Below, piece by piece: positions 3,122-28,032 of a stretch of DNA of 28,032 bases. The notes under the pieces are model-generated. The model searched no databases and was not told the DNA's origin. It was given only the letters and a program-made list of their open reading frames with translations. Both the position numbers and the translations under genes were made by a program. Every line of letters starts with the position of its first letter. Position 1 is the stretch's first letter. Source of the stretch: Aduncisulcus paluster (Eukaryota; Fornicata); assembly GCA_024181965.1 (NCBI GenBank), contig BQXS01012576.1:9447-37478 (forward strand), written 5' to 3'.

Positions 3122-3134
3122 GATATAAAATTAA

Positions 3135-3192: not shown

Positions 3193-3313
3193 TCTGTAAA
3201 ATCAAATTAATTGAACAAAACAAGATAAATTCAGCTAACTCTGAAAAAATGAATTTTATTCCTCACACACACAAGAAAAAAAAAAAAAAAAAGAATCAGG
3301 AGAAATCAGCAAT

Positions 3314-5985: not shown

Positions 5986-6286
5986 TTCGCCTCAAATATT
6001 ATCTACACGTCTCAATCATCTGTAATATGAATATTGTCTCGTTTTATAGGCTTGGTTTGATGTACTGGTTAGTTTACGATAAGAATTGTAGATAATATTG
6101 GGATGATCTCAACTATTTGTCGCCTTACATGAAAATTCCAAGGACATCCCAGATTGTGGATATCTTTGTAATTCAAAAATAAAAGAGATTGAAAATATTA
6201 CTGTAGTGATAGATAATTGTATTAGATATTGAGTCTCAATAAGAATTCAAACTTGAAAATGAAATCAAGTCTTTTGTGTTAATAGA
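5986..6286. other. Divergent intergenic region between the GRWD1-like gene and the 230-aa gene
   Basis: About 300 bases of AT-rich sequence lie between two starts pointing away from each other, so it must hold both promoters. I see no gene and no clear consensus element in it. Confidence 0.5.
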
Positions 6287-6979
6287 ATGAAAAAGGAGAG
6301 AGAATTACTCTATTTACGGAGTAAGATTAGGTTTATGGAGATTTATTTGGAATATAAAAGGAAATTGTTCCATGATAAACTTCAAGAAATGAAAAGAATG
6401 GAAGAAGAAGGATATTGTGGACCAACTGCCACTTCTAAAAAGGATCCTCGGTCAAAAAGAATGCCTATTATGGATAAAAGGTTATACCGCGCAGCCTTAT
6501 CTGTTCTTCCAAAGCCAATACACTATCAAGGAAAAGAGTATTTTCCCATGGTAAATCTATCTTCATACGAGTGTAAAATATCAAAAGATCAATCAGCAAT
6601 TATAGAATCATGTTGTGATTCCCCTCATAAACTTGAAAAATTGATGGATTCTTCAAGTAGAGTCAAATCCTTATTATTATCTAAAGACAGGTCATTTTCA
6701 GATCTACCATATATTCAACCGTTTCATATTCAAAAAAATTTAAGCACTCACTCGAGTAAGAGTTCAAGTTTACAGTCCAGTCGGCGATCTAGCCTCTCTG
6801 GGAAAACATCCTCCGATTTCTATGATCCTACTTCAACTGTTGTGGAGGCTATCATGGGTTTAGATCTTGCTGATAGTGAAATCAATTCGAAAGAGGCCAT
6901 TGTTCCACCAATATCTTCATATATTAGCCGCAGTTCAGCAATAGATATTCTCTTTGGTTCCATTAGTGCCAAAAAATGA
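6287..6979 (+). CDS. Hypothetical protein, 230 aa
   Basis: I do not recognise the family. The ATG at 6287 is backed by an in-frame TGA a few codons upstream. The first 40 residues are rich in Lys/Glu/Arg/Tyr and predict an amphipathic helix or coiled coil (MKKERELLYLRSKIRFMEIY). The middle has a compact part with paired Cys (ESCCDSP). Residues 150-190 are Ser-rich with basic residues (SSRRSSLS) that resemble basophilic kinase sites. The C-terminus ends in two Lys. There is no signal peptide, membrane helix or catalytic motif. The next plus-strand gene starts 190 bases downstream. Codon choice is AT-ending, which suggests modest expression. Confidence 0.7.
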   Translation: MKKERELLYLRSKIRFMEIYLEYKRKLFHDKLQEMKRMEEEGYCGPTATSKKDPRSKRMPIMDKRLYRAALSVLPKPIHYQGKEYFPMVNLSSYECKISKDQSAIIESCCDSPHKLEKLMDSSSRVKSLLLSKDRSFSDLPYIQPFHIQKNLSTHSSKSSSLQSSRRSSLSGKTSSDFYDPTSTVVEAIMGLDLADSEINSKEAIVPPISSYISRSSAIDILFGSISAKK

Positions 6980-7169: not shown

Positions 7170-10100
7170 ATGGAGAGATTATCCCTCCATGATGCTCAAC
7201 CAATTTTGACACCACAAAGCACTACTTTTCGAAAGGGAAGTTATTTTTTACTAAAAACTACATTAAAAAATGGATTTGGAATATATTGTAGTGAAAAGGA
7301 AACAATTTTACCAATTGATTTTCCCACCAGATTTCAACTTGTTCCATATAATCGAGTATTCTGTTCCTTTTCAGCTAGTGACTCCAATCGGTGTTTGGTA
7401 GATTGTTTTTTACATGATTCCAAAGATCTTGACCATTATTCCTCGAGATATCATCTTATTCTATTTGATATTGATTCTCTGTCGTGTGAGATCATCCTGT
7501 CAGACAATATTCGTCTTATTTCTTCAATAGGATCAGATGAATTGGGTATTTTATATGCCCCATTTGGGAAGTTAGATTGTTCTATAATGAGATATGATTT
7601 AGAATCGAAGAAATCCTTTCATTTCATACATTCTGTTTCAAACATTTCTCATATTGTGATTCTTCCAGGTGATTACATTTGCATATGTTGTATGAAAAAT
7701 GATTTGGAAGATCATTGTCCAATTTTTCATCTCTACCAAAAAGGAGTTTGTTTGTGGAGATTTTCTAGTGATATTCCTATCAAAATGGCTAAATATTCGA
7801 TTCCTCATCCAATCAATAGCCATATTGTATGTATTCATGCTGTTGAACGGTATTCTGATACCATTACCTTCATTGTCGATTGGTTTGAGCAAAAAGTTCT
7901 TTGTTTCTTTCGTGGAATGAATGTTCCTTCTTTTTCAAATGATGGAAATTTCATTGCTTTCTATTCGTCAACTCATCAACGGTATGTTATTCATCGTTGT
8001 GATATCAAGAATGATAACTTTGATGAAGTTTTTCACTCTGAATTGATCCCCAAACACATTGGTCATTCTTACCAACCCCAGAATATATGCAAGGACTTGT
8101 TTATATTTCCTCAAAGTAATGGATTTATCGGGGTCGTTTCACTTATTTCATGGAGATATGGTCGTATTGGGGTTGGGGAGTCATGGAATGGTTTGATTAT
8201 TCCTAAACATCAAAATATGCAGAAGAAATTTAATTATTTGGCCAAAGAAAAATTGGATTATGAATATTTTTATGTTCTTCCAATCTCCCCATTGTTTTCC
8301 TCGCTTCCTTTACTCACGCTCAGGCTTGATAGTCACCTCGAATGTTTGTCTCTACAAGAGATGGCCCTATTCCCATTCCCTTCCTTAAAGAATGATATTC
8401 ACTCTAGATTGGGAACCTTTTGTCTTCTTTCACAATATAACGGAAAGAAGTATCGAGTTGTTGCATATAACACCAAACAGCAGAAAATAATCAATTTCCA
8501 TGATATTGAGCGGATTACGAAAAAGATATCAGAATCCAGTTCTCTTGATTACCTTGAAAGTTTTGAATTCGCCCAAGTCCAAGCATCAGGCTTAAATCAA
8601 CATGACACACCTCGGTGTCAACGCCATGTTGATTATGATGATTGTATATATCCTGTGTGTAAGGCTCTACAGTGTAATAGCGAAGGTGATAGTTTATTCG
8701 ACATTGAGTCTCCTGAGCGATGTAATTCTTCAATGTCTGTTTGTGGAAGGTTTTGTATTTTGTGTGCTTATGTTGGAGGGGGAAAGTATTCAATCCAAGT
8801 TTTTGATTTTGTTCAAGGCGTTCGTATGGTGATCAGAGATGGATTATCCCAACCTCACACAGTGTCTGTTCTTTATGAAAAGGAATTAAATTGCCTTGAA
8901 ATATGTTATTATCCCGAGCGGTCTTCACTCGCTTCGATTTACTTATATCAAATATATTTCTTCCAAAAATGTCCCTCTTCATATGATGTTTCTCAAGATT
9001 CTTCAGCTGTCTCCAACTTTTCCTCGTGTTATGGAGAATCTGAGGAGTTATTCAAATTTTACGGCTCTGAATCGATATTTGAAAGTAGTGATCACGATAC
9101 TCACGACTCGCATGATTCATATTCATTTTATTCCATCGAACTAGAGACAATAATTGATAATCTTTCGCCAATATCACACATTATTCTCTCACTTGGGTGG
9201 ATAGTAGTGTTTGACGGATCAGTGAATTCATTTTCCACTTCTCCTTCGATCTCAGTTCTTTCTCGGGATGGAACAAAGTTATTCTCAACCTCTAATAATG
9301 GGGGTGTTAAGTTCAAGCCCAAAATAATTGAACTTGATGTTGATTTTTTAAAGAGTGCGGATGATGAATCGATTGAGAAACATTCAGACCAATCTTGCAG
9401 TACTGATGATCCTGTTGAGGTCAATCCAATGAGTCTTCTTCGATTGATTGCATGTTCTATTTATAAATCTGATTTTGAGAGTTTTTTGTTTATTCTCAAT
9501 CCTGATTCCCATTTCCATATTGAAATTCCGAAAGCTTCGTATCCCTCGTTTTCCCCTTCAAACGAGTATCTTTTATATTCCACGCCGAAATCGGTTGTTG
9601 TATTCAGCATTATTGAAATGAATGAAATTTATGAAGTTTATTATGATGATGATGATCGAGGAATAAGGGAGGCTCGTTTTATTATTGGCAGTAACGATCT
9701 TTTCTATTTTATTCAGAATTCAAAGTTATCAATCGCTTCTATTTCCAAAAGGATGTGCAAAACCATCCCTCTGGTTTCTTTTTCGTCTTTGTGTCAAATA
9801 ATTCCAATTTTTCCTGGGGCTTATTCAATCTGTCGCGGGGAGTGTTTTGACACTTTGATAAGTTCCAAGATTATCAATTCATTTGATGAGGAAGACTCAT
9901 CTGATTATTCTAAGGTTTCTCCGATTCGTTTGCATGAAGGAATAAGAGGAATCAGAGGTGAATCTCGAAAAATGTATGATGATTTTAGTGGAGCGCTTTT
10001 TTGTGTTGAATCAAACCTTTGTCCTTTCTATCCTTCTCTCAGTGCATGCATAGATGCTAAGGATATTATTTCTTCAACAATTAGTCGATATTCTTTTTTG

Positions 10101-10643
10101 TTATTCCATCCTTTTGTTCTCTCTTGCTCTGAACTGGTCGAGAACATTATATTTCAAATTATTCAACATCTATCGTCATGTTCTGACTCTTCAGTTCAGC
10201 TTCACCCACAATATATTCAAAGATCCATCTCTAAACTTATCCATAACACTCAAAGTACCCATAATTCCTTGATATTGGGAGACATTGGTGTTCAAGAATA
10301 TGTAGAACCCGAAGAATTCAGCCAAATGCAGCTAAAATCTGGTATATTATCGCCAATTTCATCCTCGCCACTAAGTGATCGATCAATTCGATTAAATCAT
10401 CCAATGATTCAGGCTTTTGTCGATAACAATTCTAATTTGCTTGATATTTTTGTAAAAAATGGAATATATCCCCTGAACCCAAGAATTTATATACCAAAAC
10501 TCCATTATATTGATATTTTCAATGTTCAATTTCCATTTTCTGTCTTATTCAAGCTCTTGGATTGTGATAAGAAAAAGATCAGAATGTACTATGATATTAT
10601 GGAAATATTGCTATATTCTCAGGTAGAATCAATATTTTGTTAA
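7170..10643 (+). CDS. Large hypothetical protein, 1157 aa, probable beta-propeller
   Basis: This is a single long reading frame in AT-rich sequence with no in-frame stop, so it is almost certainly coding. I do not recognise the family. Roughly the first 950 residues are short beta-strand-like segments alternating with polar turns (for example HLILFDIDSLSCEIILSD, GKYSIQVFDFVQGVRMVI, FILNPDSHFHIEIPKASYPSFSPSNEYLLYST), which is the rhythm of degenerate WD40/propeller repeats, though the WD dipeptides are missing. An Asp/His/Ser-rich loop (SSDHDTHDSHDSYS) lies near residue 645. The last 150 residues look helical and include a conserved-looking C-terminal block (RIYIPKLHYIDIFNVQFPF) that could be a partner-binding module. 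There is no signal peptide or membrane helix. Such scaffolds occur in trafficking, autophagy and ciliary proteins, but no function can be assigned. Confidence 0.75.
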   Translation: MERLSLHDAQPILTPQSTTFRKGSYFLLKTTLKNGFGIYCSEKETILPIDFPTRFQLVPYNRVFCSFSASDSNRCLVDCFLHDSKDLDHYSSRYHLILFDIDSLSCEIILSDNIRLISSIGSDELGILYAPFGKLDCSIMRYDLESKKSFHFIHSVSNISHIVILPGDYICICCMKNDLEDHCPIFHLYQKGVCLWRFSSDIPIKMAKYSIPHPINSHIVCIHAVERYSDTITFIVDWFEQKVLCFFRGMNVPSFSNDGNFIAFYSSTHQRYVIHRCDIKNDNFDEVFHSELIPKHIGHSYQPQNICKDLFIFPQSNGFIGVVSLISWRYGRIGVGESWNGLIIPKHQNMQKKFNYLAKEKLDYEYFYVLPISPLFSSLPLLTLRLDSHLECLSLQEMALFPFPSLKNDIHSRLGTFCLLSQYNGKKYRVVAYNTKQQKIINFHDIERITKKISESSSLDYLESFEFAQVQASGLNQHDTPRCQRHVDYDDCIYPVCKALQCNSEGDSLFDIESPERCNSSMSVCGRFCILCAYVGGGKYSIQVFDFVQGVRMVIRDGLSQPHTVSVLYEKELNCLEICYYPERSSLASIYLYQIYFFQKCPSSYDVSQDSSAVSNFSSCYGESEELFKFYGSESIFESSDHDTHDSHDSYSFYSIELETIIDNLSPISHIILSLGWIVVFDGSVNSFSTSPSISVLSRDGTKLFSTSNNGGVKFKPKIIELDVDFLKSADDESIEKHSDQSCSTDDPVEVNPMSLLRLIACSIYKSDFESFLFILNPDSHFHIEIPKASYPSFSPSNEYLLYSTPKSVVVFSIIEMNEIYEVYYDDDDRGIREARFIIGSNDLFYFIQNSKLSIASISKRMCKTIPLVSFSSLCQIIPIFPGAYSICRGECFDTLISSKIINSFDEEDSSDYSKVSPIRLHEGIRGIRGESRKMYDDFSGALFCVESNLCPFYPSLSACIDAKDIISSTISRYSFLLFHPFVLSCSELVENIIFQIIQHLSSCSDSSVQLHPQYIQRSISKLIHNTQSTHNSLILGDIGVQEYVEPEEFSQMQLKSGILSPISSSPLSDRSIRLNHPMIQAFVDNNSNLLDIFVKNGIYPLNPRIYIPKLHYIDIFNVQFPFSVLFKLLDCDKKKIRMYYDIMEILLYSQVESIFC

Positions 10644-10870: not shown

Positions 10871-11826
10871 TTAGTAAAATCCAGACTTGCCAGATTTCAC
10901 AACACATTTTTCTTCAAATGGTTGAACTTTCCATCCGTTTCCATTGTGAACAGCACCAACGGGGCAACCAAATTCACAGGTAAAGCATCCAATGCATTGT
11001 TTGGGCCTTGTTACAACGACAAGCTTCTTGGAGAGTTTCTTTTCACGTCTTTCAGTGGGATCCTCTGTACGATCCACCAAATCAAAAACATTGTAAGGAC
11101 ATTCACGGAAACATTTTCCACATCCTGTACAGATATCTGTCTCAATAACAGGAGGAAAAGAACTGTAAGAACGCATAGCACCAGGAGTACAGATTTTTCC
11201 AACAGCTTTCATAAATAATCCTCCGGAGGGAGACTTTGGTGCAGGAGTTTTCTTAATGATGCCATCAATAGCAATTTTGGCATTCACATCGATAAGAGAA
11301 TACTCTTTAGGACCCCAATGAGCAGATCCAGATTCAAATTTGGAAGCACTCTTTGTATGGATATAAGGAGCTACCACAACAAAGTAATGAGCAATATATC
11401 CGTGTTTAGGAGCAAGGATTTCTGATGCATGCTTGAAAAAGAGAGACTTCTTAGATCCACCACTGGTACTGAAAAAAACACAAGGCTTGTTTCCAAGATC
11501 TGGAATTCTTGGGGACATCATAATTTCTTGGGTAATTAAAGGTTCTTGGAAACCCCATACGGGAGCTCCAAAACAGAACCCGTCAAAATCATCAGAATTG
11601 AAGAGAGGGGTTTCTGGGCCACGGAGGGCCTTGTTAAGAGAGAATTCTTTCACTGAATGACCCATTGCACTAAAGATTCGGCCCATTTCCTGAGCGACAT
11701 GCTTTGTGTATCCGGTAAAGGAATTGTAGAGGATTGCAATCTGAATAAAGAATGAATATAGTTAATAAAACAGGGTAACAAATAATATCATGGAAATAAT
11801 AAAAATGGGTACCATACTCTAACCAT
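10871..11826 (-). CDS. Flavodoxin-2x[4Fe-4S] ferredoxin fusion (EFR1-like), spliced
   Basis: Exon 1 is 11818-11826 (9 nt, Met-Val-Arg), the intron is 11741-11817 (77 nt, GTATGG...TTCAG), and exon 2 is 10871-11740; the product is 292 aa. Splicing adds the start of a flavodoxin fold, IAILYNSFTGYTKHVA (residues 4-19), whose N-S-F-T-G-Y-T is the FMN-phosphate loop; the frame without the intron would start after it. A second flavin-side loop is GFCFGAPVWGF, with FFSTSGGS following. The C-terminus binds two cubane clusters: C207-x2-C210-x2-C213-x3-C217-P and C252-x2-C255-x2-C258-x3-C262-P. These fusions carry low-potential electrons in anaerobic protists and bacteria. The partner is unknown (for example PFOR or hydrogenase), and none is encoded nearby. 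No organelle-targeting presequence is visible, so a cytosolic site is likelier. It shares a 28-bp spacer with the divergent 75-aa ORF. Confidence 0.9.
11741..11817 (-). other. Spliceosomal intron of the flavodoxin/ferredoxin gene
   Basis: This 77-nt intron has donor GTATGG, a T-rich 3' end and acceptor TTCAG, in phase 0 after three codons. Removing it joins Met-Val-Arg directly to the first beta-strand of the flavodoxin fold, exactly where that family starts. Confidence 0.88.
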
Positions 11827-12082: not shown

Positions 12083-12197
12083 ATGAGGAATATTATGCAT
12101 AACAATGGAAGTAATAATGCGATATTTAGAGTTTTCAAAAAAGCAAAAACTCAAATAGTACATCTTCAATTTGACACAAGTAACAAACAATACAAAC

Positions 12198-13448
12198 ATG
12201 AATTCAGAAGGAATAGAAAAATCCGAATGGATTAAAGCAATAGAAGATCAAGCCAAATATCAAACAACCCATAATTCAAATACTGCCTCCTCAGAGACCC
12301 CAGATGTTTCAGACGTTCATATTTATGAGGGAAAATCTAAAAAAAGCCACTCATATCATCCAAAACATTCTTCAACTACACTAAAATCGTCAGAATACGT
12401 TCTTTATCCAACTCAAGCATTTCAATCGCCTCCCCACGTATATTCACCGTATATTCAAACATATGGAGCTCAAAATACTTCCCCACATGTTCAATTAGGT
12501 ATTCACACACATGATATATCCCCTAGGCATTTTCAACCTTCTCCTTCTCATAGTGTCGGCTTTGCAAGTCATGCAACACCAATGGCAGTAGGTCATGGAT
12601 TTTCAACTCAATATCAACCAATATTTTATCCCGGAGCCCCCATTGAATTTCCCGATCTCAAACAACCCAAATCTCCTGTGTATTATCAAAACCAGGTGAA
12701 ACATGAGAGGACGTCTGAGCATGGGAGTAAGAAAGAACATCATCATTCATCTCGTCATGCTCATCAGAAAAAACCGGTCTCTTCGGAGCCATTTTCATAT
12801 TCTACTCCAATTTCTTCCCATCCTAAAACGACCAGTGCTCTAAGTTCTGCTTCTAAACGATCTCGAAAGGCCAAACACTTTATGGAAGATTCCAGCCAAG
12901 ATGATTCTGCAGATTCTGTGAAAATGTCCATTGTCTCCGAGAAATCATTAAAGGGTGATAATGAACATATTTCTCTCAAGAATGTGCACAAATCTCCTGA
13001 TAAATCGATGAAATTTAAGGATTATTGTCCGGATTCGGGTTCACAGTCTGAAAAGAAACAAGAACAAAATGGTGACTTGGTATCGACCTCTGATCTAATT
13101 GCTCCAACGTTTGTTTCTGTTGATATTCCCACAAAAATATCATCATCCCCAAGAGTAACTGAGCTCCAACAACTCAAAGCTGATCACAAGGCTTTGCTCC
13201 ATACTCATTCGCTGCTGGAAATGACTGTAGAGGAACTGAAATCAAGTGTGGAAACGATAACGAAGGAGAAAACAGGCATTCAGGCTGAGCTTGTGAATGC
13301 AAAATCGACGATAAAATCTCTTGAGAATCAAGTTGATTTATTATTAAAAGAGAGAACCAAACAAAAGAACCAAAATGAGAAACAGGTGGATGTAATTTCA
13401 GCTCAAAAATATGCTGTTGAGGGAAGAAAAGAATCGAGACTGAAATGA
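12198..13448 (+). CDS. Coiled-coil protein, N-terminal part (frame 1 of a split gene)
   Basis: The ATG at 12198 is preferred; an upstream TTG in the same frame at 12171 is not a likely eukaryotic start. The 416 residues begin with a disordered part rich in His, Ser, Pro and Tyr (about residues 30-170, for example SPYIQTYGAQ and SPRHFQPSPSHS), followed by Ser/Lys-rich linkers. Residues from about 315 form a long coiled coil (LQQLKADHKALLHTHSLLEM... and LENQVDLLLKERTK). The frame ends at a TGA at 13446-13448 in the middle of coiled-coil sequence, while the next frame continues the coil from 13421 onward. It is therefore very likely the first half of one protein of about 818 aa. Family not recognised. 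Confidence 0.7.
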   Translation: MNSEGIEKSEWIKAIEDQAKYQTTHNSNTASSETPDVSDVHIYEGKSKKSHSYHPKHSSTTLKSSEYVLYPTQAFQSPPHVYSPYIQTYGAQNTSPHVQLGIHTHDISPRHFQPSPSHSVGFASHATPMAVGHGFSTQYQPIFYPGAPIEFPDLKQPKSPVYYQNQVKHERTSEHGSKKEHHHSSRHAHQKKPVSSEPFSYSTPISSHPKTTSALSSASKRSRKAKHFMEDSSQDDSADSVKMSIVSEKSLKGDNEHISLKNVHKSPDKSMKFKDYCPDSGSQSEKKQEQNGDLVSTSDLIAPTFVSVDIPTKISSSPRVTELQQLKADHKALLHTHSLLEMTVEELKSSVETITKEKTGIQAELVNAKSTIKSLENQVDLLLKERTKQKNQNEKQVDVISAQKYAVEGRKESRLK

Positions 13449-14653
13449 AGCATTTGAAGGAGCAACACGCAAGAGAAAGCCTTCAAAGTCAGAGAGAATT
13501 GGCTCAAGCAAGAAGAGAGGTGAAAGAATTAACCAAGGTTATTGAAGATAAAAAATGGGCTTCAATCTGTTCAGAAAAGAAATCAAAAGTCGTTGAATTT
13601 GGGATAAAGCCAGAATTGGATACAGGATCAAGAAAAGGTGTGAAAGATCATGATTCTTCTTCACTCCCAAATCAAAGTTCTCAACGATCGATAGAAATTG
13701 GACGAAAAAGTGGTATTGGTCAGAACTGGTCTGTTTCTGATGGATCTCCAACCTCTCAGCAATTATTTATTCAACCAGATCTTACAATTGATCATCCCAT
13801 TCCACAAAGTCAAAGTGATACCAGGGAAAAGAATGAATCTTCCAAAAGTCACGTGCATAGATATGTTCGAGATGAGGGTGAATCCAGAGAGAAACAATGG
13901 AAACGTCGCCTAGAATTTGAGAAATTTATGTATAAACAACGTCAACTCATGGGAGATAAAGAGGATTCTTCCCACAAATACATTGAGGATTCTTGTTCAA
14001 GATTTGATCACGAATTAAAATTTGAGGACAAATCTGAGTATGAGGAGGTGAGTGATCGTCAGAGGAAACGTAGCATGCCTGATGCAAGAGATGACAAATA
14101 TCATCCAGAACCTAGGCATTACATTCCTCCATATATATCTGAGCGTCAGCAGGAACAGGACTTTTCAAAGTTTCTTGAAGCCGAAAGTCGGGAAAAGGAT
14201 ACATTTATGAAACAAATGGATATGATGGCTGGTCGAACATCAAGGGATAGATTACCTCGAAAATCTCATGAAACTCCTCGTTCATCGCAGGTACAGGAAT
14301 CATCTTCAATTGATGATAAAAGGAAAAGAGAAGGGGAAGTTCGAGATTCACATTCTCCTCTAAAGAATTCTCCCAATAATGTTTATTCGTCGCATGAAAT
14401 GCCCCCTATTGCAACTGAGGTTGACTTTTTTGATATTCGTCGAAGATTGGGTGAAGCTCAAGCACAATTAAGTCAATTTCAACTCGAAAAAAAGAGGCTG
14501 ATGGAAGAATATGATCGCTTGTGTAGTTCCCAAATCAAAAAGAGGAGAGATATTGAACGCAAACATGCTTTAAATGAATCAATTGAAATATTTTCACATC
14601 GAGTGGCCACATACAAGGCTTTGGTGAAGGATTTGGAAGATATGCTAAGCTGA
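13445..14653 (+). CDS. Coiled-coil protein, C-terminal part (frame 2 of a split gene)
   Basis: The 402 residues read from an ATG that overlaps the TGA of the preceding ORF (ATGA). The same frame is open back to 13421 and encodes GKKRIETE just before this Met, which continues the heptads of the upstream ORF; this argues that the true joint is a frameshift and not a separate start. Contents: a coiled coil (residues 1-40, QRELAQARREVKELTKVI), a charged disordered middle with many Ser, Arg, Glu and Asp, and a C-terminal coiled coil (about residues 330-402: LSQFQLEKKRLMEEYDRL, then IEIFSHRVATYKALVKDLED). The C-terminal heptad pattern recalls ciliary and centrosomal proteins, but that is only a resemblance. 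Confidence 0.7.
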   Translation: MKHLKEQHARESLQSQRELAQARREVKELTKVIEDKKWASICSEKKSKVVEFGIKPELDTGSRKGVKDHDSSSLPNQSSQRSIEIGRKSGIGQNWSVSDGSPTSQQLFIQPDLTIDHPIPQSQSDTREKNESSKSHVHRYVRDEGESREKQWKRRLEFEKFMYKQRQLMGDKEDSSHKYIEDSCSRFDHELKFEDKSEYEEVSDRQRKRSMPDARDDKYHPEPRHYIPPYISERQQEQDFSKFLEAESREKDTFMKQMDMMAGRTSRDRLPRKSHETPRSSQVQESSSIDDKRKREGEVRDSHSPLKNSPNNVYSSHEMPPIATEVDFFDIRRRLGEAQAQLSQFQLEKKRLMEEYDRLCSSQIKKRRDIERKHALNESIEIFSHRVATYKALVKDLEDMLS

Positions 14654-16768: not shown

Positions 16769-18610
16769 TTAACATCCTTTTATCATTGGTTCATCACTTG
16801 AGGAACTCAGACGTCTGCGATCACTTCCAATGACAAGAGAAAGCTGATCTTCCCCCATCGAGAGATCATCTCTGGAAGAGGTGGAAGAGGTGGAGGAGAT
16901 AGAAGCTGTGGAAGTGCACACAGGTTGTCTAGAACTATTCGGATAAGCACCTGGCATACCAACATGCCCATCATATCCCCTTGAGGAAATATGGCACGAA
17001 AGGGGAGCAGTGTCCTCTCGAGCAGGAGTTATGCTATTGGAATGAATGTCATAATGGTGCTGGTATCCATGAAAGGTCATACTGGGATCATACAAATGCT
17101 GACTTGATATGGGCTGAGGAAATACGAAGGAGGGTTGGCCATGAGGTTCTTGAACTGAAGACAGCATTTCAGGCGGATTTGAGGGTGAAACCTTGCGATT
17201 CTGGTGGTGGGATGATATTCCGACCGTGCGGCCATAACCATCGTGAGGAATCATCTGTTCAGAAGGACATGGGATTGAATAAGATCCGGCTCGAGGGGAA
17301 GACTTGGCACTGAAATCCATATCAGAAGAAGAAGAAAATGATCCTCTTGTCACATGAGCAGTGTGTGAATGCATTGGGAAGGAAAGGTGGGAAGACATGT
17401 CGTGGGGGGACATTCTCTTGGTACCTGTAGGCAGAGAGTCATCAGGAATTAAGGGTTGCTTGGGCAGAGATGTCTGGGAAGCGATGGAGGAACCGTGTAT
17501 TTTCATGCCATGGGGAAGAATTGGTTGCTCTGAGGGGGATGAAAAACGTCGTTCTATATGGCCAGAGAAGGAAGACGGATGATGGAGAGAGATTGGACGA
17601 GGATTTGATTTGGGGGAGTGTGGAACATGACCATTCGGACAGTAGTGGGGGTTTGATACAATCGTGGAGGTTGAAGAGTGGGCATATCCGTCTGGATAAA
17701 TAGTACGGCCATGAACAGGATAGGTATGATGAGAATCAATCGGATATCGCTCAGGATACGAACTGAGATGAGTCTGGGATGGGTGAGTGGCCGACAGATG
17801 CATGGATGATCCAGAAATGGACGATCTTTTCACTGTCACATCTTCTGGACACATCGAGACTTCCATAGCATGATGAAGAGGAGAGATACTGCTTGTATGG
17901 ATTGTTTGTGTATGAACCAATGGTTGATGCTTGGGAGAATAGGAAAGAACATGACTTTGCGGATGATATAGGTCCTGTGAGGGATGAGCATATGGAATAT
18001 GCTTCGAAGTTGTTGCACCGCTGTACAACGGAAGAGGATATCCATGTGGGGAATGAAAGGACCTGTGAGGGGGATGAGCAGAGGAATGAGGACATGATGA
18101 AGGAAATTGATTAGGATAGGGGCATGAGGATTGAGGGGGGAGGGGGAGGGAGCTTTTCGAGGGAGAATGATATTGTGAAGTTGCTGATATAGCTAAAGAA
18201 TGACTCATAGGGAAATGGTCAGGTGGGGAATCTGAGGATCTTGGCTGAATACAACTTTCATGTTGATAATATTGAGATTCAGTAGGCTTCGTTAGAAAAT
18301 TTATCCCTTTTGAAGAAGATTTGGGTATCTTTTTTTGCTTTCGGCCATGAAAATTATGAAAGTGGGCATGTGAAGAGATAAAGGCTCGTTTGGCTGGCTC
18401 AGCACCTAAAAGAACGCCATTAATTCTCATGTGATGAAGACTATCAATGGCTTTCTTTTCTTCTTCTTCGGTTTCATAGTCGACGAAACAATATTTTGCA
18501 CAATCTTGATCCGGCTTAGTTATTTTAACAACCTGGCCGTATGAAGATATTAGATCACGAAAAGATTTATCAGATACGTCCTTTGCAATATTATGACAGA
18601 AAATGGTCAT
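16769..18610 (-). CDS. RRM RNA-binding protein with a long His/Ser/Pro/Tyr-rich tail
   Basis: The 613-aa product has one N-terminal RNA-recognition motif (about residues 1-75). RNP2 is IFCHNI (residues 3-8) and the RNP1-like strand is KYCFVDYE (residues 39-46), with Phe42 and Tyr45 at the usual aromatic positions though the usual Gly is Tyr40. A basic linker follows (KRAFISS...GRKQKKIPK). The remaining 500 residues are low-complexity, rich in Ser, His, Pro and Tyr, with few charges, and end in a Ser/Thr/Asp-rich segment with RRRLSSSS (a possible kinase site). Such a layout is typical of proteins that form RNA granules or act in splicing or translation control; the RNA target is unknown. The start is the ATG at 18610, directly before RNP2. 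No intron is needed. Confidence 0.85.
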   Translation of the reverse strand: MTIFCHNIAKDVSDKSFRDLISSYGQVVKITKPDQDCAKYCFVDYETEEEEKKAIDSLHHMRINGVLLGAEPAKRAFISSHAHFHNFHGRKQKKIPKSSSKGINFLTKPTESQYYQHESCIQPRSSDSPPDHFPMSHSLAISATSQYHSPSKSSLPLPPQSSCPYPNQFPSSCPHSSAHPPHRSFHSPHGYPLPLYSGATTSKHIPYAHPSQDLYHPQSHVLSYSPKHQPLVHTQTIHTSSISPLHHAMEVSMCPEDVTVKRSSISGSSMHLSATHPSQTHLSSYPERYPIDSHHTYPVHGRTIYPDGYAHSSTSTIVSNPHYCPNGHVPHSPKSNPRPISLHHPSSFSGHIERRFSSPSEQPILPHGMKIHGSSIASQTSLPKQPLIPDDSLPTGTKRMSPHDMSSHLSFPMHSHTAHVTRGSFSSSSDMDFSAKSSPRAGSYSIPCPSEQMIPHDGYGRTVGISSHHQNRKVSPSNPPEMLSSVQEPHGQPSFVFPQPISSQHLYDPSMTFHGYQHHYDIHSNSITPAREDTAPLSCHISSRGYDGHVGMPGAYPNSSRQPVCTSTASISSTSSTSSRDDLSMGEDQLSLVIGSDRRRLSSSSDEPMIKGC

Positions 18611-19361: not shown

Positions 19362-21377
19362 CTATTCATCGTCATCGTCAACAATGACCTCCAATCTTCC
19401 CTTGTTGATAACATCGAGCACTTCAGGGTTGGCCAGTCCACTCATGTCTCCCCATTGTTCCTTGGGCTTACCATCAGCGATACCTCTGAGCATTCTCCTC
19501 ATCATCTTTCCACTAAGAGTCTTTGGAAGGGCATCAACCCATTGGATGAGGGAAGGCTTGGCAAGCTCTCCAATCTTCTTCACAAGCATCTCACTATAGT
19601 CCTTCTTGAACTTCTCCAGCATAGCAGGGGTGGCTTTGGCACTCACTTGAGGGAACAGACGGACAAAGAGATACAGACCTCTTCCCATGATAGGGTGTGG
19701 ACAGCCGACAGCAGCTACTTCAGCAACAGCAGGGTGCATGGAGATACAACTCTCAACCTCACCTGTCCCAATACGATGGGCATACCCTGTCTTAATAACA
19801 TCATCGACACGACCAATCACTGTGTACAGGCCATCCTCGTCACGCCTTGCAACATCTCCAGAGTAGAAATAACCAGGATATGGGTCAAAATAAGTCTTCT
19901 TGTACTCGTCCATGTGTCCATAGAAACCAGCAATCATTCCAGCCCAAGGCCTCTTGAATACAAGAACACCTTCAACCTCATTGCCTTCAAGTTCTTTCCC
20001 ACTATCATCAAGGAGAGCAGGGAATTGGGATGGCTGGGGAATATAGCCTCCACCAGGTTTGAATCCAGAGATCTCACGGTGGTGTCCAAGGAAACAGCCT
20101 TCAGATTGACCGTAAATGTGGATAAGCTCACTCTCACCATCCCTACAAACAGTCTTATGGATCCATTGCCAAAGATCGGGACTGCACACTTCCCCAGCGG
20201 TGATAACGGTTCTCAAGTGGGTCAGATCACAAGAAGAGACATATTTAGGACCGAGGGCACGTATCAAACGGTAATATGTTGGCTGAGTCATGAAGGAAGC
20301 AACAGAGTGACGCTCAAGAATCTCAAAAACACGACCAGGGGAAGGATAGAAGAAGTCTCCCTCGTACATAAGAGTAGTGATTCGAAGAAGGAAGGGACCA
20401 AGAACAGCGTAAGCGATTCCTCCAATCCAGGCGGGGTTTCCACAACACCACACAACATCACCAGTGTCTGTATTATGATAGATATCCGGACCCATAGCTG
20501 CCCATACACAGTAAGCAATTGTATGCACAATACCTTTCGGAACACCACTTGAACCAGAAGAATAAATGATAAAGAAAGGTTCGTTGGCCTCAACCAAAGT
20601 ATAATCACATTCTTTGGGCATTGAAGCAATCTCTTTCTCGAAATTCAAATCGGTCGGATGTGATTCATAGTCTAAGCCAGTGAAATGATGGACAATTGTG
20701 TGACGGACGTTGGGACAGCCAGAGAGGGCTACATTAGCTTTTTCTTTGATTGGATCATGTTTAATCCCGGAGATTCCTTCATCACAGGTGATAAGAATAG
20801 AGCTTCCAGATTGTTCAATACGAGTTTGAAGGGCTTCAGCGGAGAGAGCAGAAAAAACCGTAACGAATATGGCACCAAGACGAGCACAAGCTAAAATGGC
20901 CATAATCATCTGAGGACGCATTGGAAGGTAAATACAAACTCGATCTCCCTTTGTAACACCAAGTTTCTTGAGGAGATTAGCATACTGACAAACATGTTCA
21001 TGCATCTCTTGATAAGAAAAGCGTTTGATATTTGAAGGGTCATTTCCTTCCCATATTAGGGCAATATCATCACCATTTCCTGCCTCAATGTGTCGATCCA
21101 ATGCATTCCAGCAATAGTTGGTTTCATAACCAGTGAACCATTTTATCTTTCCGTTTTTCATGTCACAATCGTAAATTTTGCTCCCTTTTTTCATCCAAAC
21201 GATGTGTTTCTTGAATTCTCCTTCCCAATAAGCTTCTGGATCACTCCAAGATTCATCGAACATTGAACGGAACTGAGATGCATTGTAGTGCAAAGGAAGA
21301 GCGCTATTACAATCCCACTGAGCATATTTCTTCTTAGTGGGCATCTCAAGCGGCATGAAAGGTTTCTCCTCGGGCAT
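19362..21377 (-). CDS. AMP-forming acetyl-CoA synthetase-like acyl-CoA ligase
   Basis: The enzyme activates a short carboxylic acid with ATP and CoA through an acyl-adenylate. From the preferred Met at 21377 it has 671 aa, close to the usual 650. Motifs in order: the N-terminal ACS part (SWSDPEAYWEGEF), IYLPMRPQMIMAILACARLGA, the phosphate loop IYSSGSSGVPKG (about 271-282), TLMYEGDFFYPSP, the adenine/acyl-pocket motif HIYGQSEG, the hinge motif YFYSGDVARRDEDGLY with GRVDDVIK, and the C-terminal KTLSGKMMRRML with the catalytic Lys at about residue 624. Two differences from bacterial Acs stand out: the Trp that limits the pocket to acetate (W414 in Salmonella Acs) is Gly, and the loop after DDV is one residue longer. 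The substrate may be larger than acetate. An upstream in-frame ATG at 21440 would add 21 hydrophobic residues; no clear targeting signal is seen. It has GC-ending codons like H2B. Confidence 0.88.
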   Translation of the reverse strand: MPEEKPFMPLEMPTKKKYAQWDCNSALPLHYNASQFRSMFDESWSDPEAYWEGEFKKHIVWMKKGSKIYDCDMKNGKIKWFTGYETNYCWNALDRHIEAGNGDDIALIWEGNDPSNIKRFSYQEMHEHVCQYANLLKKLGVTKGDRVCIYLPMRPQMIMAILACARLGAIFVTVFSALSAEALQTRIEQSGSSILITCDEGISGIKHDPIKEKANVALSGCPNVRHTIVHHFTGLDYESHPTDLNFEKEIASMPKECDYTLVEANEPFFIIYSSGSSGVPKGIVHTIAYCVWAAMGPDIYHNTDTGDVVWCCGNPAWIGGIAYAVLGPFLLRITTLMYEGDFFYPSPGRVFEILERHSVASFMTQPTYYRLIRALGPKYVSSCDLTHLRTVITAGEVCSPDLWQWIHKTVCRDGESELIHIYGQSEGCFLGHHREISGFKPGGGYIPQPSQFPALLDDSGKELEGNEVEGVLVFKRPWAGMIAGFYGHMDEYKKTYFDPYPGYFYSGDVARRDEDGLYTVIGRVDDVIKTGYAHRIGTGEVESCISMHPAVAEVAAVGCPHPIMGRGLYLFVRLFPQVSAKATPAMLEKFKKDYSEMLVKKIGELAKPSLIQWVDALPKTLSGKMMRRMLRGIADGKPKEQWGDMSGLANPEVLDVINKGRLEVIVDDDDE

Positions 21378-21923
21378 TGTTTCGTAATCAAAAAGCAAAA
21401 TCGGCATCACAATTGTTGGGCAAGTGCAAATGGACTTCATAAACCAAATAGAAAATGAAAAAATTAAAGACAAAAACGCATGAAAGAATTTTATTCATTG
21501 TTTATTATTTAATATTGTTATTTTCTCGCTCACAGGGAGAAAACCATTTTCGCAGATAAAACTACTTGCACCGTCTTCATAATATGAATCGTTTGCATAT
21601 CTAGAATATTTGAAACTGAATTTAAGGAACACTTAAACCCCGAACGGCATTTTTGTGCATGTTTTTGAATGAAAGACTTCCCATGTTGAAGTTAACTTAA
21701 CTTGAAGTTGGCTTTGTCAACGTGCTCTTTTAATCGCCCTGAACATATTCAGCGATAATTAAGTGGCGAACTTTCAGTGGGTTCTTCACAGCTAGCATGA
21801 GAGTATTCATATATCGCGAGTGAACCACAGCTTGAAGCTGACAACTTCAGAATCCTGAATATTTCAAGTAATACTTTGATTGAAACAATAATAAATAAGG
21901 TTTGAGAAAGAATGAAGTGATTT
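21378..21923. other. Intergenic region upstream of the ACS-like gene
   Basis: This holds the ACS-like promoter/5' leader and the 3' flank of the acylphosphatase. No gene is supported. It is unusually rich in short palindromes built on GAAGTT/AACTTC words: AAGTTAACTT (21689-21698), then CTTGAAGTTGG, CAGCTT-G-AAGCTG (21828-21840) and TGAAG...CTTCA directly after. A short ATG-led frame at about 21498 in another phase could be an upstream ORF or chance. Confidence 0.45.
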
Positions 21924-22319
21924 TCATTTCTTTTTTCTCACAATGACACGTTTTGTAGCTAGTTTTTTCTTAGTGGCAATGCTCTTTGTCTTTCTTGATG
22001 TAGGTCGTATAATTTCAAAAGTGGGGGGTACTATTGTCTTATCAAAAGATGGAAAGGAGGCCCCATCTGCCAACAAATTCCAAATTCTTACATCCTCCAC
22101 TCGTGCACTAGGGGAGCCAATTTTGAGCCAATCAATCATTTTTTTCGAATTTTCTTTGTTGATTGTATTATAACACACTCCAGTAACCGATCCATCAGCC
22201 ATATTTTTGACATGTCCAGTTAAAGAAAGCTCTTGAGCCATTCGTTTCGTATACTTACGGAACCAAACGCCTTGAACCTTTCCCAAAACTTGAAATTTAA
22301 AAGCATCAATCAATGACAT
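21924..22319 (-). CDS. Acylphosphatase with a basic C-terminal extension
   Basis: Acylphosphatases hydrolyse carboxyl-phosphate bonds (acetyl-phosphate, carbamoyl-phosphate, 1,3-bisphosphoglycerate). The first 95 residues are the complete domain: GKVQGVWFRKYTKRMAQELSLTG matches the signature G-x-V-Q-G-V-x-[FY]-R, with Arg21 as the phosphate-binding residue, and VKNMADGSVTG carries the second catalytic residue, Asn39 (Arg23 and Asn41 in bovine enzyme). The usual enzyme ends at about 98 aa; here 35 extra residues are rich in Lys, Arg and Thr (TKKKLATKRVIVRKKK), which could be a nuclear or nucleic-acid-binding tail. The start is the ATG at 22319, with no intron. The ACS-like gene lies next downstream on the same strand, but there is no evidence that the two are linked. 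Confidence 0.92.
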   Translation of the reverse strand: MSLIDAFKFQVLGKVQGVWFRKYTKRMAQELSLTGHVKNMADGSVTGVCYNTINKENSKKMIDWLKIGSPSARVEDVRIWNLLADGASFPSFDKTIVPPTFEIIRPTSRKTKSIATKKKLATKRVIVRKKK

Positions 22320-22681: not shown

Positions 22682-25600
22682 TCATCCACTTATAACGAGG
22701 CGATTGATAATATTTCCACGAGCTTGGGGTGAAACACATTGTAATACAGCAGATGTTGACAATTCTCTTCTTGTAAAAGGTTTAAGTATCGATCCTTTGA
22801 ATAAACAAAATGATTGAGGCTTTTTCTTCCCAATGGATGTCCAAATTTCAGCAGAACTAGGAAATGGAACAAATACGAACTCGCCTTGAGCTTTTGTAGT
22901 TTGAGATCTATCTAAATCGGAGTCTTTGTCTTCAAGTCCATCATCTGAATCGCGAGATTTGACAAGTTCAGTTATGGATGTCCAAAGAGTTCTCTTGGGC
23001 TCACCTTCTGGAGAAGCGGGCAGTGTAGTCTTGGAAGAAGGTGTTTGAACTTCAGATTTCTTCCATAAATATCCTTGTATACTCACAAATTCAGGAAATA
23101 ACCTTTCGCCTTTCCGAGGAATTCCAATCATTCTGGCCAATTTCTTCCCGGGTATTGTTATAAATACTCTCGTTTTACGACTAGAACTTGAAATAAGGGA
23201 TCGCTTAGGCCACTGAATGATGGACTCAGAAGATCCTCTTTGCGAAGATTTATATGGATATTGATCACGAGCACTTCTGGACATTGAAGGAGCAAACGAT
23301 GACCCAAGATCACTTGAATCCTCACTAGGACGTAGAGTTCCATGGGATCCATCGCCGGTGCTTGTTATCAGAGAGACAGCGCCACTCACAAAAGAGGATA
23401 ATATTCCTGGCTTTGGTGGAGAAGCTGGAAGAGAGCACTTGATTGGAGTGATGGATTCGTTCTCCGTTGCAAATGAATGTTCGAATCCACCGGAATTAGA
23501 AGAGCGGATGGAAATGTGGCTGGCATCCAAGATTCGAGGAAGACTCCGGCTTTTTGGAGGGGATATTGATGAAGTGGAGGAATGTTTGAAGTGGCATGAT
23601 GCAATTTGAGTCGAATATATCATAGAATTGGGAGTTTCTTTTCCTTTCGGTTGCTGGGTTACTTTCTGTTGTTTTTTGGGAGGGGAAGGCAATGGTTTCT
23701 TCTTGTTCTTTCCTTTCTTTTTCTTGGGAGACTTTGGAGATTTTGACTCCTTGAACGAATCAAAGCCCATTATTACAACGCTGGATTCATCATCAGAGTT
23801 TTCATACAAATGTGGAACCTTCTTCTGGGGTTGTGAACGAGCAGATGGTTTCTTCTTCTTCTTTTGAATTTCTATGTCTTTCTCTGGGAATGAGGATTCA
23901 TAAGAATACTCATAATCACACTCCCGTGATAATGAGGGCATCGATACGATTGTAGAATCTATATCTTCCTGCTCGAGGGAACTATATTCAACAAAAGCAT
24001 ATTCATACTCATACTCATATTCTTCCCTTGGAGGAGGGATATATTTCTTTGGACGCGCTCGTCGAGGACTGGGAGTGCGAGATGATTTACCATGCATTTT
24101 TCGAAAAGACCGATCGATATCATACTTTGAACTTAAATGTTTTTGATTCTTCCTTCCTTTTTTGTTTGTTGAGTGTTTGTTTTTCTTATTTCTAGAAGAA
24201 TATTTGCTTCGCGAATGAGAATACTTGCTCTTTTTTCTTCTTTTTTTGGACTTTTCAGAAGCTGATGCATCACATGCCCAAAAACAACAGAATATCCCTG
24301 ATTTGCCTGTGCATATCCATCGGAAAATGAAGATAGCAACAATAATAGCTCCAATTTCATACAAAAAGGTTGTGTAGCAACGGAGGATCCAGAGACACTT
24401 AACGTTGAATAATCCACAACTTGACACACAATATCCTGGGAGACGACCATACCACTCAGATGATTCATAACCAGGCTGATCGATGATACCATCGGAAGTG
24501 TCGGTGGCTTTTGGTGTGAACGTCACTACTTTTGTATCATACAGCTTGCTTGATGAAGAAGATGATCGTAGATACACGGTGCACTCCATTTCTTCCGACA
24601 AAGGAGAGGTTGATGATATGGAAAAAGATCGTTGAACTTCTTGTTGAGCTTCAATTCCAACAGTTTGGGAAGGTACGGTCATTATTTCTTCACTACATTC
24701 AGTAACAGACAATGAGAAATCAGCGTTAAGCAAAGAATCTTCGTTCTTAACAACCACAATCATCTTTCCTTCTTCTGCGAGGGCTTCATACTCTTCAACA
24801 TAAGCATCAGAGATACTGGCATCAGAGGCTTCATTGGTTACGAATGATATAGAATCTGCTGCGAGCTCAATAAGCATCATTGTTGTTTGTTCTCCTGGGA
24901 CGTCATATGTCAACGTATATGCAATAGATCCTTCTGTGTCTTGTTCTGTCTCGACAGTGCACCCATCACCATAGATATCGACAAGATATAGCGGTTGTTC
25001 ACTGTTATCGATTCGATCCAGATCAGAATCATACAGATCACTGGCTTGATTGGCAAGACAATCGCCTGCACTCGAGTTTGAACATGTCTGTGTGTTAAAA
25101 GCAGTGAAGGAAGTTCCAACCCGATTACATAGACTTCCATCCAATGAGATATTCTGATCTGAAATTATCAACCAAGCATCCTTACCGAGAGCAACAAGAT
25201 CATCATCAGATGGAAACATGGGAGCAAGGAGATACTTATTCACTGGACTTTTCTTGAGTGCTGTGGCTTCAAAATCACCGACAATTTTAAGAAAAACGTT
25301 TGAATCTGCAGAAGTAAGTTGAGTAAGGGATGGATCGAGTGTGAATGTCTGTGTTTCGGCAGTTGTTCCAGATCCAGTCGTTATGGAACAGGTGATCGAA
25401 TAATAAATATCCTCATTTCCAATCAAAAATCCGGCATACCATAATTCAGACATTCGAAGACAATGGGCAAAATCTTTGAGAGTTGTAAGACCGCAAGTAA
25501 TTCCACTTCTTAATTCTGTATCATATGTGTAAGCTTGACAATTACAACACATGCCCTCGGATCCATCGATAGCATTCATGTCTGAGTCATACGAATAGCC

Positions 25601-26017
25601 GCATGTTGGTTCAGATCCACTGTCGACACAAGGGCTGGTGAGATAATTGGAAGTTATGACCTCCTCATATACCCGAGAATTAAACATTTTCAAATATTGA
25701 AGTGGATACACAAATTGAGCTTGTGACTTCGAACACGAGACACTAATATTCGTTTCTACTGTGACTTCATTGTCATTTTCATCTGTAACACTGTCAATAA
25801 CGGCTTCGACGGATGTTCCAATGGATGTGGAGTCAAGAGATAAGGATATTACAACTTTTTGTTCACAATTTTGATCAATACCGGAATCAGAAGATGTATT
25901 AGTGCAACTTTCAAGTGTAGATGATGATAAAATTGAACATATAGAAAAATTTAAGAGAATCGAAAAAAATATGACAAGAAAAGAAATTCGAAGGGAAATA
26001 AAGTTCAAATAATTCAT
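22682..26017 (-). CDS. HAP2: HAP2/GCS1 gamete membrane fusogen with a very long cytoplasmic tail
   Basis: HAP2/GCS1 is the class II fusogen that merges gamete plasma membranes in plants, algae, ciliates and many protists. The 1111-aa product starts with a signal peptide (residues 1-28, core SFLVIFFSILLNFSICS). The ectodomain shows the family's conserved run: YPLQYLKMFNSRVYEE (104-119), PCVDSGSEPTCGYSYD (129-144), the Cys cluster EGMCCNC (154-160; family pattern 'DSQGFCC-x-C'), FAHCLRMSELWYAGFLIG (183-200; family 'HCLRxxxLWYxGYxIG'), then DAWLIISDQNISLDGSLCNRVGTSF (280-304; family 'GxxCNKIGVSYxAF') and GDCLANQASDLYDSD (318-332; family 'CLxNQLxDL...D'). A single membrane helix lies at about 549-568 (EIGAIIVAIFIFRWI), followed by Cys residues that might be acylated. 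The tail of some 540 residues is basic and Ser/Pro-rich, with Glu-Tyr repeats. No intron is needed. The start is the ATG at 26017. Confidence 0.92.
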   Translation of the reverse strand: MNYLNFISLRISFLVIFFSILLNFSICSILSSSTLESCTNTSSDSGIDQNCEQKVVISLSLDSTSIGTSVEAVIDSVTDENDNEVTVETNISVSCSKSQAQFVYPLQYLKMFNSRVYEEVITSNYLTSPCVDSGSEPTCGYSYDSDMNAIDGSEGMCCNCQAYTYDTELRSGITCGLTTLKDFAHCLRMSELWYAGFLIGNEDIYYSITCSITTGSGTTAETQTFTLDPSLTQLTSADSNVFLKIVGDFEATALKKSPVNKYLLAPMFPSDDDLVALGKDAWLIISDQNISLDGSLCNRVGTSFTAFNTQTCSNSSAGDCLANQASDLYDSDLDRIDNSEQPLYLVDIYGDGCTVETEQDTEGSIAYTLTYDVPGEQTTMMLIELAADSISFVTNEASDASISDAYVEEYEALAEEGKMIVVVKNEDSLLNADFSLSVTECSEEIMTVPSQTVGIEAQQEVQRSFSISSTSPLSEEMECTVYLRSSSSSSKLYDTKVVTFTPKATDTSDGIIDQPGYESSEWYGRLPGYCVSSCGLFNVKCLWILRCYTTFLYEIGAIIVAIFIFRWICTGKSGIFCCFWACDASASEKSKKRRKKSKYSHSRSKYSSRNKKNKHSTNKKGRKNQKHLSSKYDIDRSFRKMHGKSSRTPSPRRARPKKYIPPPREEYEYEYEYAFVEYSSLEQEDIDSTIVSMPSLSRECDYEYSYESSFPEKDIEIQKKKKKPSARSQPQKKVPHLYENSDDESSVVIMGFDSFKESKSPKSPKKKKGKNKKKPLPSPPKKQQKVTQQPKGKETPNSMIYSTQIASCHFKHSSTSSISPPKSRSLPRILDASHISIRSSNSGGFEHSFATENESITPIKCSLPASPPKPGILSSFVSGAVSLITSTGDGSHGTLRPSEDSSDLGSSFAPSMSRSARDQYPYKSSQRGSSESIIQWPKRSLISSSSRKTRVFITIPGKKLARMIGIPRKGERLFPEFVSIQGYLWKKSEVQTPSSKTTLPASPEGEPKRTLWTSITELVKSRDSDDGLEDKDSDLDRSQTTKAQGEFVFVPFPSSAEIWTSIGKKKPQSFCLFKGSILKPFTRRELSTSAVLQCVSPQARGNIINRLVISG

Positions 26018-26480: not shown

Positions 26481-28032
26481 ATGTCTGATCACGGCGAAGA
26501 TCATATTGATAGCCCATCTCAACCGGCTCATTTATATGTTTTACGGAAAGTAGCATCCCAGACTCTGTTTGATGATGATGATTTTCCACTTTTTGGACCT
26601 CCAAGTGATTTTCAATCAGTTGGGGGCACTCAAGGTTCTTTATCAGGTACACCTGCCTTTTTACAACTTCAATTATCTAGTCCTGAATATACTTCCAAGC
26701 CTCCTGTTGATATTGATGGTGATATGGCTTCTGACAACCCCATGGCACAATTGCATCGCCTTGCGATGGAACTTCAGTCTGTAGATAAGGAATCCCAGGA
26801 AAAAGAATACACAAAACCTACTTTTGATATACATGATCACTCTAAATCTCACTCTCGCTCTGGATCTCAAGATAGTCCATTGCCTATGGCACAAATTCGA
26901 AAAGAATCTAAGCGCATTGATGCCTCTCCTTCGCCAACCAAAACGCCTCCACAGACTCCTTCTGTTGTCTTTTCAACCCTTCCCTCCCATCCTCCCTCGA
27001 CACATGTTGATCCTCTCTCATTGTGTCCTTCCACTCTTTCTCAGCATTTAAACCTCATGGAAGACAATGACGGTGAAGGCTTACGCATTGTGGGATTGGA
27101 TGAGAATGGTGAAGACGCGTCCACTTCAGGCAATAGTAGTCCAGGTGGTAATGATGCTCGTAATACAGGAGGGAGTTATCCAATGGAATTGTTTGATCGT
27201 GAAAACGCTACAATTAGTGCTGGGGAGCGGCAGACAGATAGTTTGTCGCCTGAACCCCATGTTGAGATACGTCCACAATTGATAAGTCGCCCCCCATCCT
27301 TCGATCTTCTCAAAGATCGATCTGGATCATTGATGCGTATATCCTCTTCTGATGAAACCACTACTCATCCGTCTGGTTCTCCCAAGAGCTCTCCCTCTCA
27401 TCCAACTGATCCATCCGACACCAAGAAACACTCCATTCCAATCCATCCCCAGGCCATTCGGGATGCCATCCTTGGTGATTCAGCACAACACACATCCAGA
27501 TCTTCGTCCATTCCTGACCTTCTATATGATCGCTCTTTGGGTCTTTCTTGCCGCACTCCTCCTTCTTCAGGGAGATTTAAGGATGACAGTGCACAAGGTC
27601 ATCAAAAGTCCTCCTCTTCTTCTTTTTCCTCCTCTTCTTTTTCCTCCTCTTCTTCCTCTATTCGTCGCTCTAGCTCCACTTCTACGCTTGTCAAGAATCA
27701 TCACAGTCGGAGTGATATCAGAGCACCCTCTTCAACGCTCTCAACAGTGGATTCTATCCCTTCTCATGAAAGGGAAGATGGGAATACTATGGATGATATC
27801 AACCCCTTGTCTTCATTCACACCTCTCTCATTTATGCTAAATAGGATGTCAAAGTCCCATTCATCGCAATCATTCAGTAGAAACTATGATGGAATTTTAG
27901 GAGAACAAGAAAGCTTGGGGACAAAAACACTGACAAAAGAGGAGATTAGAGAAGAGATTGCAGCTCAGAAAGAACGACAAGATGAGCAAAAAAAATGGCA
28001 GTTCCTTCTTTCTGGTGGAACTCTTTCCGAGA
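26481..28032 (+). CDS. Ser/Pro-rich disordered protein, N-terminal part (runs off window)
   Basis: The frame is open from the ATG at 26481 to the window end, 517 full codons with no stop. I do not recognise the family. The protein is mostly disordered: an acidic start with a poly-Asp patch (FDDDDFPLFGPPSD), Ser/Pro/Thr-rich stretches containing proline-directed phosphorylation-like sites (for example SPSPTKTPPQTPS), a Ser/Phe homopolymer run (about 27608-27660, from a pyrimidine-rich TCC/TCT/TTT tract), and a Lys/Glu/Gln-rich helix or coiled coil near the edge (TKEEIREEIAAQKERQDEQ). A structured domain may follow beyond the window. It is likely a cytoskeletal, signalling or scaffold protein, but nothing specific can be said. 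Confidence 0.75.
   Translation, partial: MSDHGEDHIDSPSQPAHLYVLRKVASQTLFDDDDFPLFGPPSDFQSVGGTQGSLSGTPAFLQLQLSSPEYTSKPPVDIDGDMASDNPMAQLHRLAMELQSVDKESQEKEYTKPTFDIHDHSKSHSRSGSQDSPLPMAQIRKESKRIDASPSPTKTPPQTPSVVFSTLPSHPPSTHVDPLSLCPSTLSQHLNLMEDNDGEGLRIVGLDENGEDASTSGNSSPGGNDARNTGGSYPMELFDRENATISAGERQTDSLSPEPHVEIRPQLISRPPSFDLLKDRSGSLMRISSSDETTTHPSGSPKSSPSHPTDPSDTKKHSIPIHPQAIRDAILGDSAQHTSRSSSIPDLLYDRSLGLSCRTPPSSGRFKDDSAQGHQKSSSSSFSSSSFSSSSSSIRRSSSTSTLVKNHHSRSDIRAPSSTLSTVDSIPSHEREDGNTMDDINPLSSFTPLSFMLNRMSKSHSSQSFSRNYDGILGEQESLGTKTLTKEEIREEIAAQKERQDEQKKWQFLLSGGTLSE

Follow-up and report, generated by a model that had tools for sequence, protein, structure and literature searches.

This study focused on a 28,032-nucleotide stretch of the Aduncisulcus paluster genome assembly (contig BQXS01012576.1, positions 9,447 to 37,478; hereafter the window) and on one long gene within it, at 22682..26017 on the minus strand, which encodes a protein of the HAP2/GCS1 family. 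Judged from sequence comparisons, the gene very probably specifies a functional class II fusogen, HAP2/GCS1, with which a protist, itself probably anaerobic, joins its mating cells; we put the probability of this reading at about 0.9. HAP2 would be produced in mating cells. By analogy with the rest of the family, short segments at the tip of its domain II would insert into the membrane of the partner cell, after which the protein would trimerise and fold back, merging the two membranes. In Leishmania, mating has been reported to be reduced or abolished when HAP2-2, a paralog of HAP2, is deleted in a single parent or in both (PMC10630298).

Identity and layout of the HAP2 protein

The gene is a single open frame of 1,111 codons, from an ATG to a TGA stop. 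A preliminary description of this DNA had given the same coordinates but no strand; the coordinates stand, and the strand is minus, the plus strand across the interval being interrupted by numerous stops in the translated frame. The longest stop-free run was scored in each of 200 first-order Markov copies of the window, and had a mean of 139 codons and a maximum of 221. In codon likelihood the gene lies within the spread seen for other genes in the assembly, and for the tail of the protein the correct frame scored -1.099 against -1.191 and -1.140 in the shifted frames, only a slight margin. The motifs that had been quoted for the protein (TCGYSYD, CCNC, HCLRMSELWYAG, CNRVGTSF and CLANQ) are all present in the translation.

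A search with the Pfam profile PF10699 (HAP2-GCS1) had been named beforehand as a test of identity, and it gave a match well above the cut-off (E 6.9e-89; 299.2 bits versus 27.4) that covers profile positions 3–512 of 515 and residues 50–545 of the protein (24383..25870, minus strand). HAP2-GCS1 is the sole Pfam family matched by the product, the profile found one match in the 7.09-Mb assembly, and none of 14 control genomes was matched by the same search. Eight PDB sequences were listed, of which six are HAP2 proteins (E 7.6e-61 to 3.1e-25) and the remaining two an unrelated endonuclease (E 0.67 and 0.77). The best score was that of 5ow4_A (7.6e-61), which we take to be Trypanosoma cruzi HAP2, its numbering agreeing with published residues, and its alignment spans residues 29–567, from the end of the signal peptide through the membrane helix. 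It was followed by 5ow3_C (5.6e-41), presumably from Arabidopsis thaliana, by three entries assumed here to be from Chlamydomonas reinhardtii (6dbs_A, 1.9e-32; 5mf1_A, 1.2e-31; 6e18_A, 1.5e-31), and by 7s0k_A (3.1e-25). Together with the Glu-Arg pair and tip cysteines described below, these matches bear out the earlier assignment, and the product is, by homology, close to certain to be HAP2. The matches to solved HAP2 structures also lend indirect support to a predicted three-domain class II fold.

Hydropathy reveals just two hydrophobic segments, the signal peptide (25934..26017, minus strand; residues about 1–28, with the peak 19-residue window at 11–29) and a transmembrane helix (24311..24367, minus strand; residues about 551–569), both of which had been proposed previously. 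By this measure HAP2 is a type I membrane protein, consisting of a signal peptide, an ectodomain of 520 residues, a single membrane helix and a tail of 542 residues. Cysteines C569, C577, C578 and C582 lie at the membrane and are followed by a polybasic stretch (24098..24313, minus strand; residues 569–640), a layout reported for many HAP2 proteins, that of Chlamydomonas included (PMC8777248). The cytosolic tail as a whole (22682..24310, minus strand; residues 570–1111 plus the stop) is Ser/Lys-rich and has no Pfam match. Its length is not unusual, because intracellular domains of at least 500 residues are known in Chlamydomonas and Toxoplasma HAP2, although the T. cruzi protein is described in the same source as nearly devoid of a cytosolic tail (PMC8777248). 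With its cysteines, polybasic stretch and length, the tail here probably serves to place and regulate HAP2.

The tip of domain II

The first 600 residues were aligned with the Chlamydomonas, Arabidopsis and T. cruzi HAP2 sequences as printed in the PDB matches. Identity is low, at 28–29% (29% with T. cruzi), but all four sequences agree in 46 columns, which include E118, R170 and six tip cysteines. In a published structure-guided alignment, 38 HAP2 proteins were anchored on nine invariant tip residues, namely seven cysteines and a Glu and an Arg that form a salt bridge (PMC6089408). Residue E118 (25664..25666, minus strand) aligns with the salt-bridge Glu of the three references (E126 in Chlamydomonas, E117 in Arabidopsis and E121 in T. 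cruzi), and R170 (25508..25510, minus strand) with the corresponding Arg (R185, R163 and R176). Constant chain-numbering offsets of 22, 6 and 23 place the two residues on the published pairs E126-R185, E117-R163 and E121-R176 (PMC6089408); the pair is conserved by alignment, and a salt bridge between E118 and R170 is predicted. This pair is reported to be missing from viral class II proteins and from the FF fusogens of C. elegans, and gamete fusion in Chlamydomonas was blocked when the salt-bridge Arg was changed (PMC8777248).

The tip itself occupies 25460..25603 on the minus strand (residues 139–186), where C139, C157, C158, C160, C175 and C186 are invariant in the four sequences. C130, which lies 2–4 columns off a cysteine in each reference, was assigned as the seventh tip cysteine. 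A first variable region, following strand b, would correspond to residues 119–129 (25631..25663, minus strand), judging from the alignment and the description in PMC6089408. By the same description, the putative membrane-insertion segments on the minus strand are residues 161–169 (QAYTYDTEL) and 176–185 (GLTTLKDFAH), the former being free of cysteine whereas kinetoplastid HAP2 proteins carry an extra pair there (PMC6089408). Nine residues separate CCNC from R170, compared with 4 in Arabidopsis, 13 in T. cruzi and 17 in Chlamydomonas. Between C175 and C186 there are 10 residues, the same number as in T. cruzi, against 19 in Chlamydomonas and 16 in Arabidopsis, the last including the amphipathic fusion helix. 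Going by segment lengths, the tip would resemble T. cruzi HAP2, with its several short loops, more closely than plant HAP2 with its amphipathic fusion helix.

Elsewhere in the ectodomain, the segment from CNRVGTSFTAFNTQTC to CLANQ (25046..25129, minus strand; residues 297–324) is conserved in the alignment, and the C-N-x-x-G to AFNTQ and CLxNQ segments are shared with Arabidopsis. The long insertion that Chlamydomonas HAP2 carries after residue 212 of the alignment is absent. For cysteines 95, 210, 312 and 353 the aligned columns of the references lack a cysteine; these four might form two extra disulfides.

Meiosis genes and the case for mating

The assembly that contains the window (7,088,625 bases in 397 contigs) was searched for meiosis genes exon by exon, with only the best candidates scored, a procedure that split genes can escape. 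HOP2 was found above its Pfam cut-off (1.3e-10), with 4y66_B as its only PDB match (7.4e-17), as was MND1 (1.6e-16, and 2.3e-9 for the LZ3wCH domain), which matched only the Mnd1 chain 4y66_A (2.1e-27); the chains of 4y66 are of the Hop2-Mnd1 type. A SPO11-family protein was also present, with Toprim (3.4e-25) and TP6A_N (9.2e-16) domains above their Pfam cut-offs. The preliminary description had argued for hidden sex, provided that the organism is an anaerobic metamonad with no observed sexual cycle, and proposed a search for SPO11, DMC1, HOP2 and MND1; the three just named turned up and make sex likelier, but DMC1 did not, and nor did MutS or HORMA proteins. Meiotic sex in the organism bearing this HAP2 is nevertheless likely, judging from homology and the accompanying genes, because HOP2, MND1 and a SPO11-family protein are found in the same assembly, on stretches of similar composition.

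Several results weigh against a HAP2 working in sexual fusion. A single-sequence AlphaFold model of 530 residues had a mean pLDDT of 33.1 and a pTM of 0.22, and was not used. No relative by which purifying selection on HAP2 might be measured occurred in the collections searched: protein searches with the full-length sequence, the first 600 residues and a four-sequence profile, each scoring only the 7,992 or 7,995 candidates with most shared words, returned the window's own protein only, and single scans for HAP2 in viral contigs and in prokaryote genome contigs gave 119 and 24 pattern matches, respectively, none of which was confirmed. The SPO11-family protein is matched in PDB by an archaeal topoisomerase VI A chain (3.4e-18) ahead of meiotic SPO11 (6.1e-11), and the TP6A_N profile also matches four of the 14 control genomes, all of them archaea. 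Neither DMC1 nor RAD51 was found in the profile search of the assembly. The MutS ATPase domain had no match there, though 11 of the 14 control genomes were matched, and no HORMA protein was found in the assembly by a search that likewise matched no control genome.

Without a relative by which to gauge selection, the gene could be a relict, open yet out of use, and an open frame by itself is no proof of use. This is, however, extremely improbable given a stop-free run far longer than any in the random copies and the retention of the Glu-Arg pair and tip cysteines. It had been argued that intactness implies selection; the frame is indeed intact, but that is weaker evidence than these kept residues. 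As to the SPO11-family protein, its NCBIfam matches were to six models of topoisomerase VI/IV A, none of which came near its cut-off (the best at 84.6 versus 531 bits), and it is a family member that is less certain as meiotic SPO11, so that the term SPO11-family, rather than SPO11, is kept here. A weak match to the DMC1 profile (8.6e-7) was rejected as DMC1, as it reached 29.4 bits where the cut-off is 447.7; it is a RAD51-family paralog, and among the best 60 of its 70 PDB matches the leading eukaryotic ones are XRCC3, behind bacterial RecA and archaeal RadA.

The completeness of the assembly bears directly on the missing genes. Eukaryotes are expected to have 14 proteasome subunits and 8 CCT genes. 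The assembly yielded eight proteasome matches at seven loci, and three full-length CCT genes that best match epsilon, beta and delta; a fourth Cpn60 match was below cut-off, inside a frame of 3,202 aa, and was not counted. With 10 of 22 yardstick genes found, the assembly looks about half complete, and because just this fraction turned up, the missing DMC1, MutS or HORMA means little. In the case of MutS, incompleteness is probably the explanation. Read literally, the absences would describe a sexual anaerobe with HAP2 gamete fusion and SPO11/HOP2/MND1 meiosis, lacking DMC1 and any MutS and similar to Anaeramoeba, where DMC1 went undetected according to PMC12722695; we regard this as very improbable. 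The same absences, which extend to all MutS proteins including MSH4/5, could be taken to mean that a true HAP2 has come to act in cell fusion of a non-sexual kind, such as somatic or trophic fusion, the more so as mating in this organism is a prediction from its genes. Against this, the assembly still encodes HOP2, MND1 and a SPO11-family protein, and the HAP2 literature cited here reports roles in gamete or mating fusion (PMC8777248, PMC10630298), which makes such a change of role very improbable.

It could also be speculated that the assembly is a mixture of organisms, and that HAP2 and the meiosis genes, which lie on different contigs among the 397, come from different species. The tetranucleotide profiles of 14 loci correlated with that of the window at 0.73–0.92 (the SPO11 stretch at 0.92, HOP2 at 0.83 and MND1 at 0.73), compared with 0.71–0.84 for eight 3.3-kb pieces of the window itself, and codon likelihoods overlap. 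In addition, PF10699, TP6A_N, TBPIP and Mnd1 each found one match in the assembly. On the other side, third-position GC (GC3) is higher in the gene for pyruvate:ferredoxin oxidoreductase (PFO), at 0.49, and the comparison set comprised the window and loci of the same assembly only, so the comparison shows consistency with one genome and is no proof of it. Overall, a mixed origin is improbable, and a HAP2 that acts in the mating of a single organism remains the preferred reading.

Two further features of these loci can be mentioned. Short introns of the form GTATGT...TAG, read by eye, are seen in HOP2 and two proteasome genes (L003 1600-1850, L010 1370-1510 and L012 1850-1960), and those in HOP2 and L010 sit near the gene start; spliceosomal introns thus occur in other genes of the assembly, but they do not place the organism. 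The SPO11 contig (L016) also specifies, at 1660-3507 on its minus strand, a multi-pass protein of 615 aa that resembles a bacterial-type sodium/glutamate symporter and gives the impression of having possibly been acquired laterally.

Lifestyle, neighbouring genes and implications

The organism had been taken for an anaerobic metamonad, and the anaerobic part of this is supported by a PFO gene in the assembly that matches TIGR02176 above cut-off (E 1.3e-296), which makes an anaerobic lifestyle likely. A match to the Fe-hydrogenase profile was not used as evidence of anaerobiosis, as it looks like Nar1, a universal protein to which, from its motifs, we presume it belongs. Within the window, a minus-strand gene at 10871-11686 encodes a protein with two 4Fe-4S motifs, the best NCBIfam matches of which, nif-specific ferredoxin III (2.1e-13) and EFR1 (1.8e-12), are both below cut-off. 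The PDB rankings of histone H2B and two proteasome subunits carried no lineage signal, and Rfam found nothing in the window.

Trichonympha and Oxymonas are metamonads. In gut flagellates such as these, gametogenesis and fertilisation were described by Cleveland from 1949, in accounts that leave little room for recombination according to a review (PMC5748591). Direct observations of sex in Metamonada are lacking according to PMC8516963, which in 2021 reported HAP2 and GEX1 in metamonads and inferred sex from them. The present case is similar, in that HAP2 and meiosis genes of an anaerobe are read as sex, but differs in that all Fornicata examined in that work had two DMC1 copies and no RAD51A (PMC8516963), whereas no DMC1 was found here. 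For Barthelona, an anaerobic flagellate, DMC1 was put forward in 2025 as the first evidence of sex at the molecular level (PMC12722695). A literature search, under narrow terms, for HAP2 in anaerobic protists with sexual reproduction found nothing.

The remaining genes of the window are of varied kinds. On the minus strand these include a MATE transporter (1-1152), histone H2B (1401-1802), a WD40 protein (3314-5995), an RRM protein (16769-18610), an AMP-forming acetate-CoA ligase (19362-21473; 574.6 bits, below the NCBIfam cut-off of 657) and an acylphosphatase with a basic C-terminal extension (21924-22319). For H2B, the PDB chain 8grq_D, with two matched stretches, far outscores the other chains among the best 60 of 179. 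A 365-aa frame at 19455-20552 on the plus strand lies antisense to the ligase, probably by chance. Long plus-strand frames occur at 6287-6979, 7170-10643, 12171-13448, 13445-14653 and 26481-28031; the three scanned, at 6287, 7170 and 12171, had no Pfam match above cut-off, and the one at 26481 is arranged divergently with the HAP2 gene.

That protists of this sort retain HAP2 together with genes for meiosis is, as a general point, known from earlier work (PMC8516963). What the window adds to the HAP2 family, which figures in arguments on the origin of sex, is a diverged, intact member whose tip segments are short and whose tail is long, and its presence makes sex testable in this organism.

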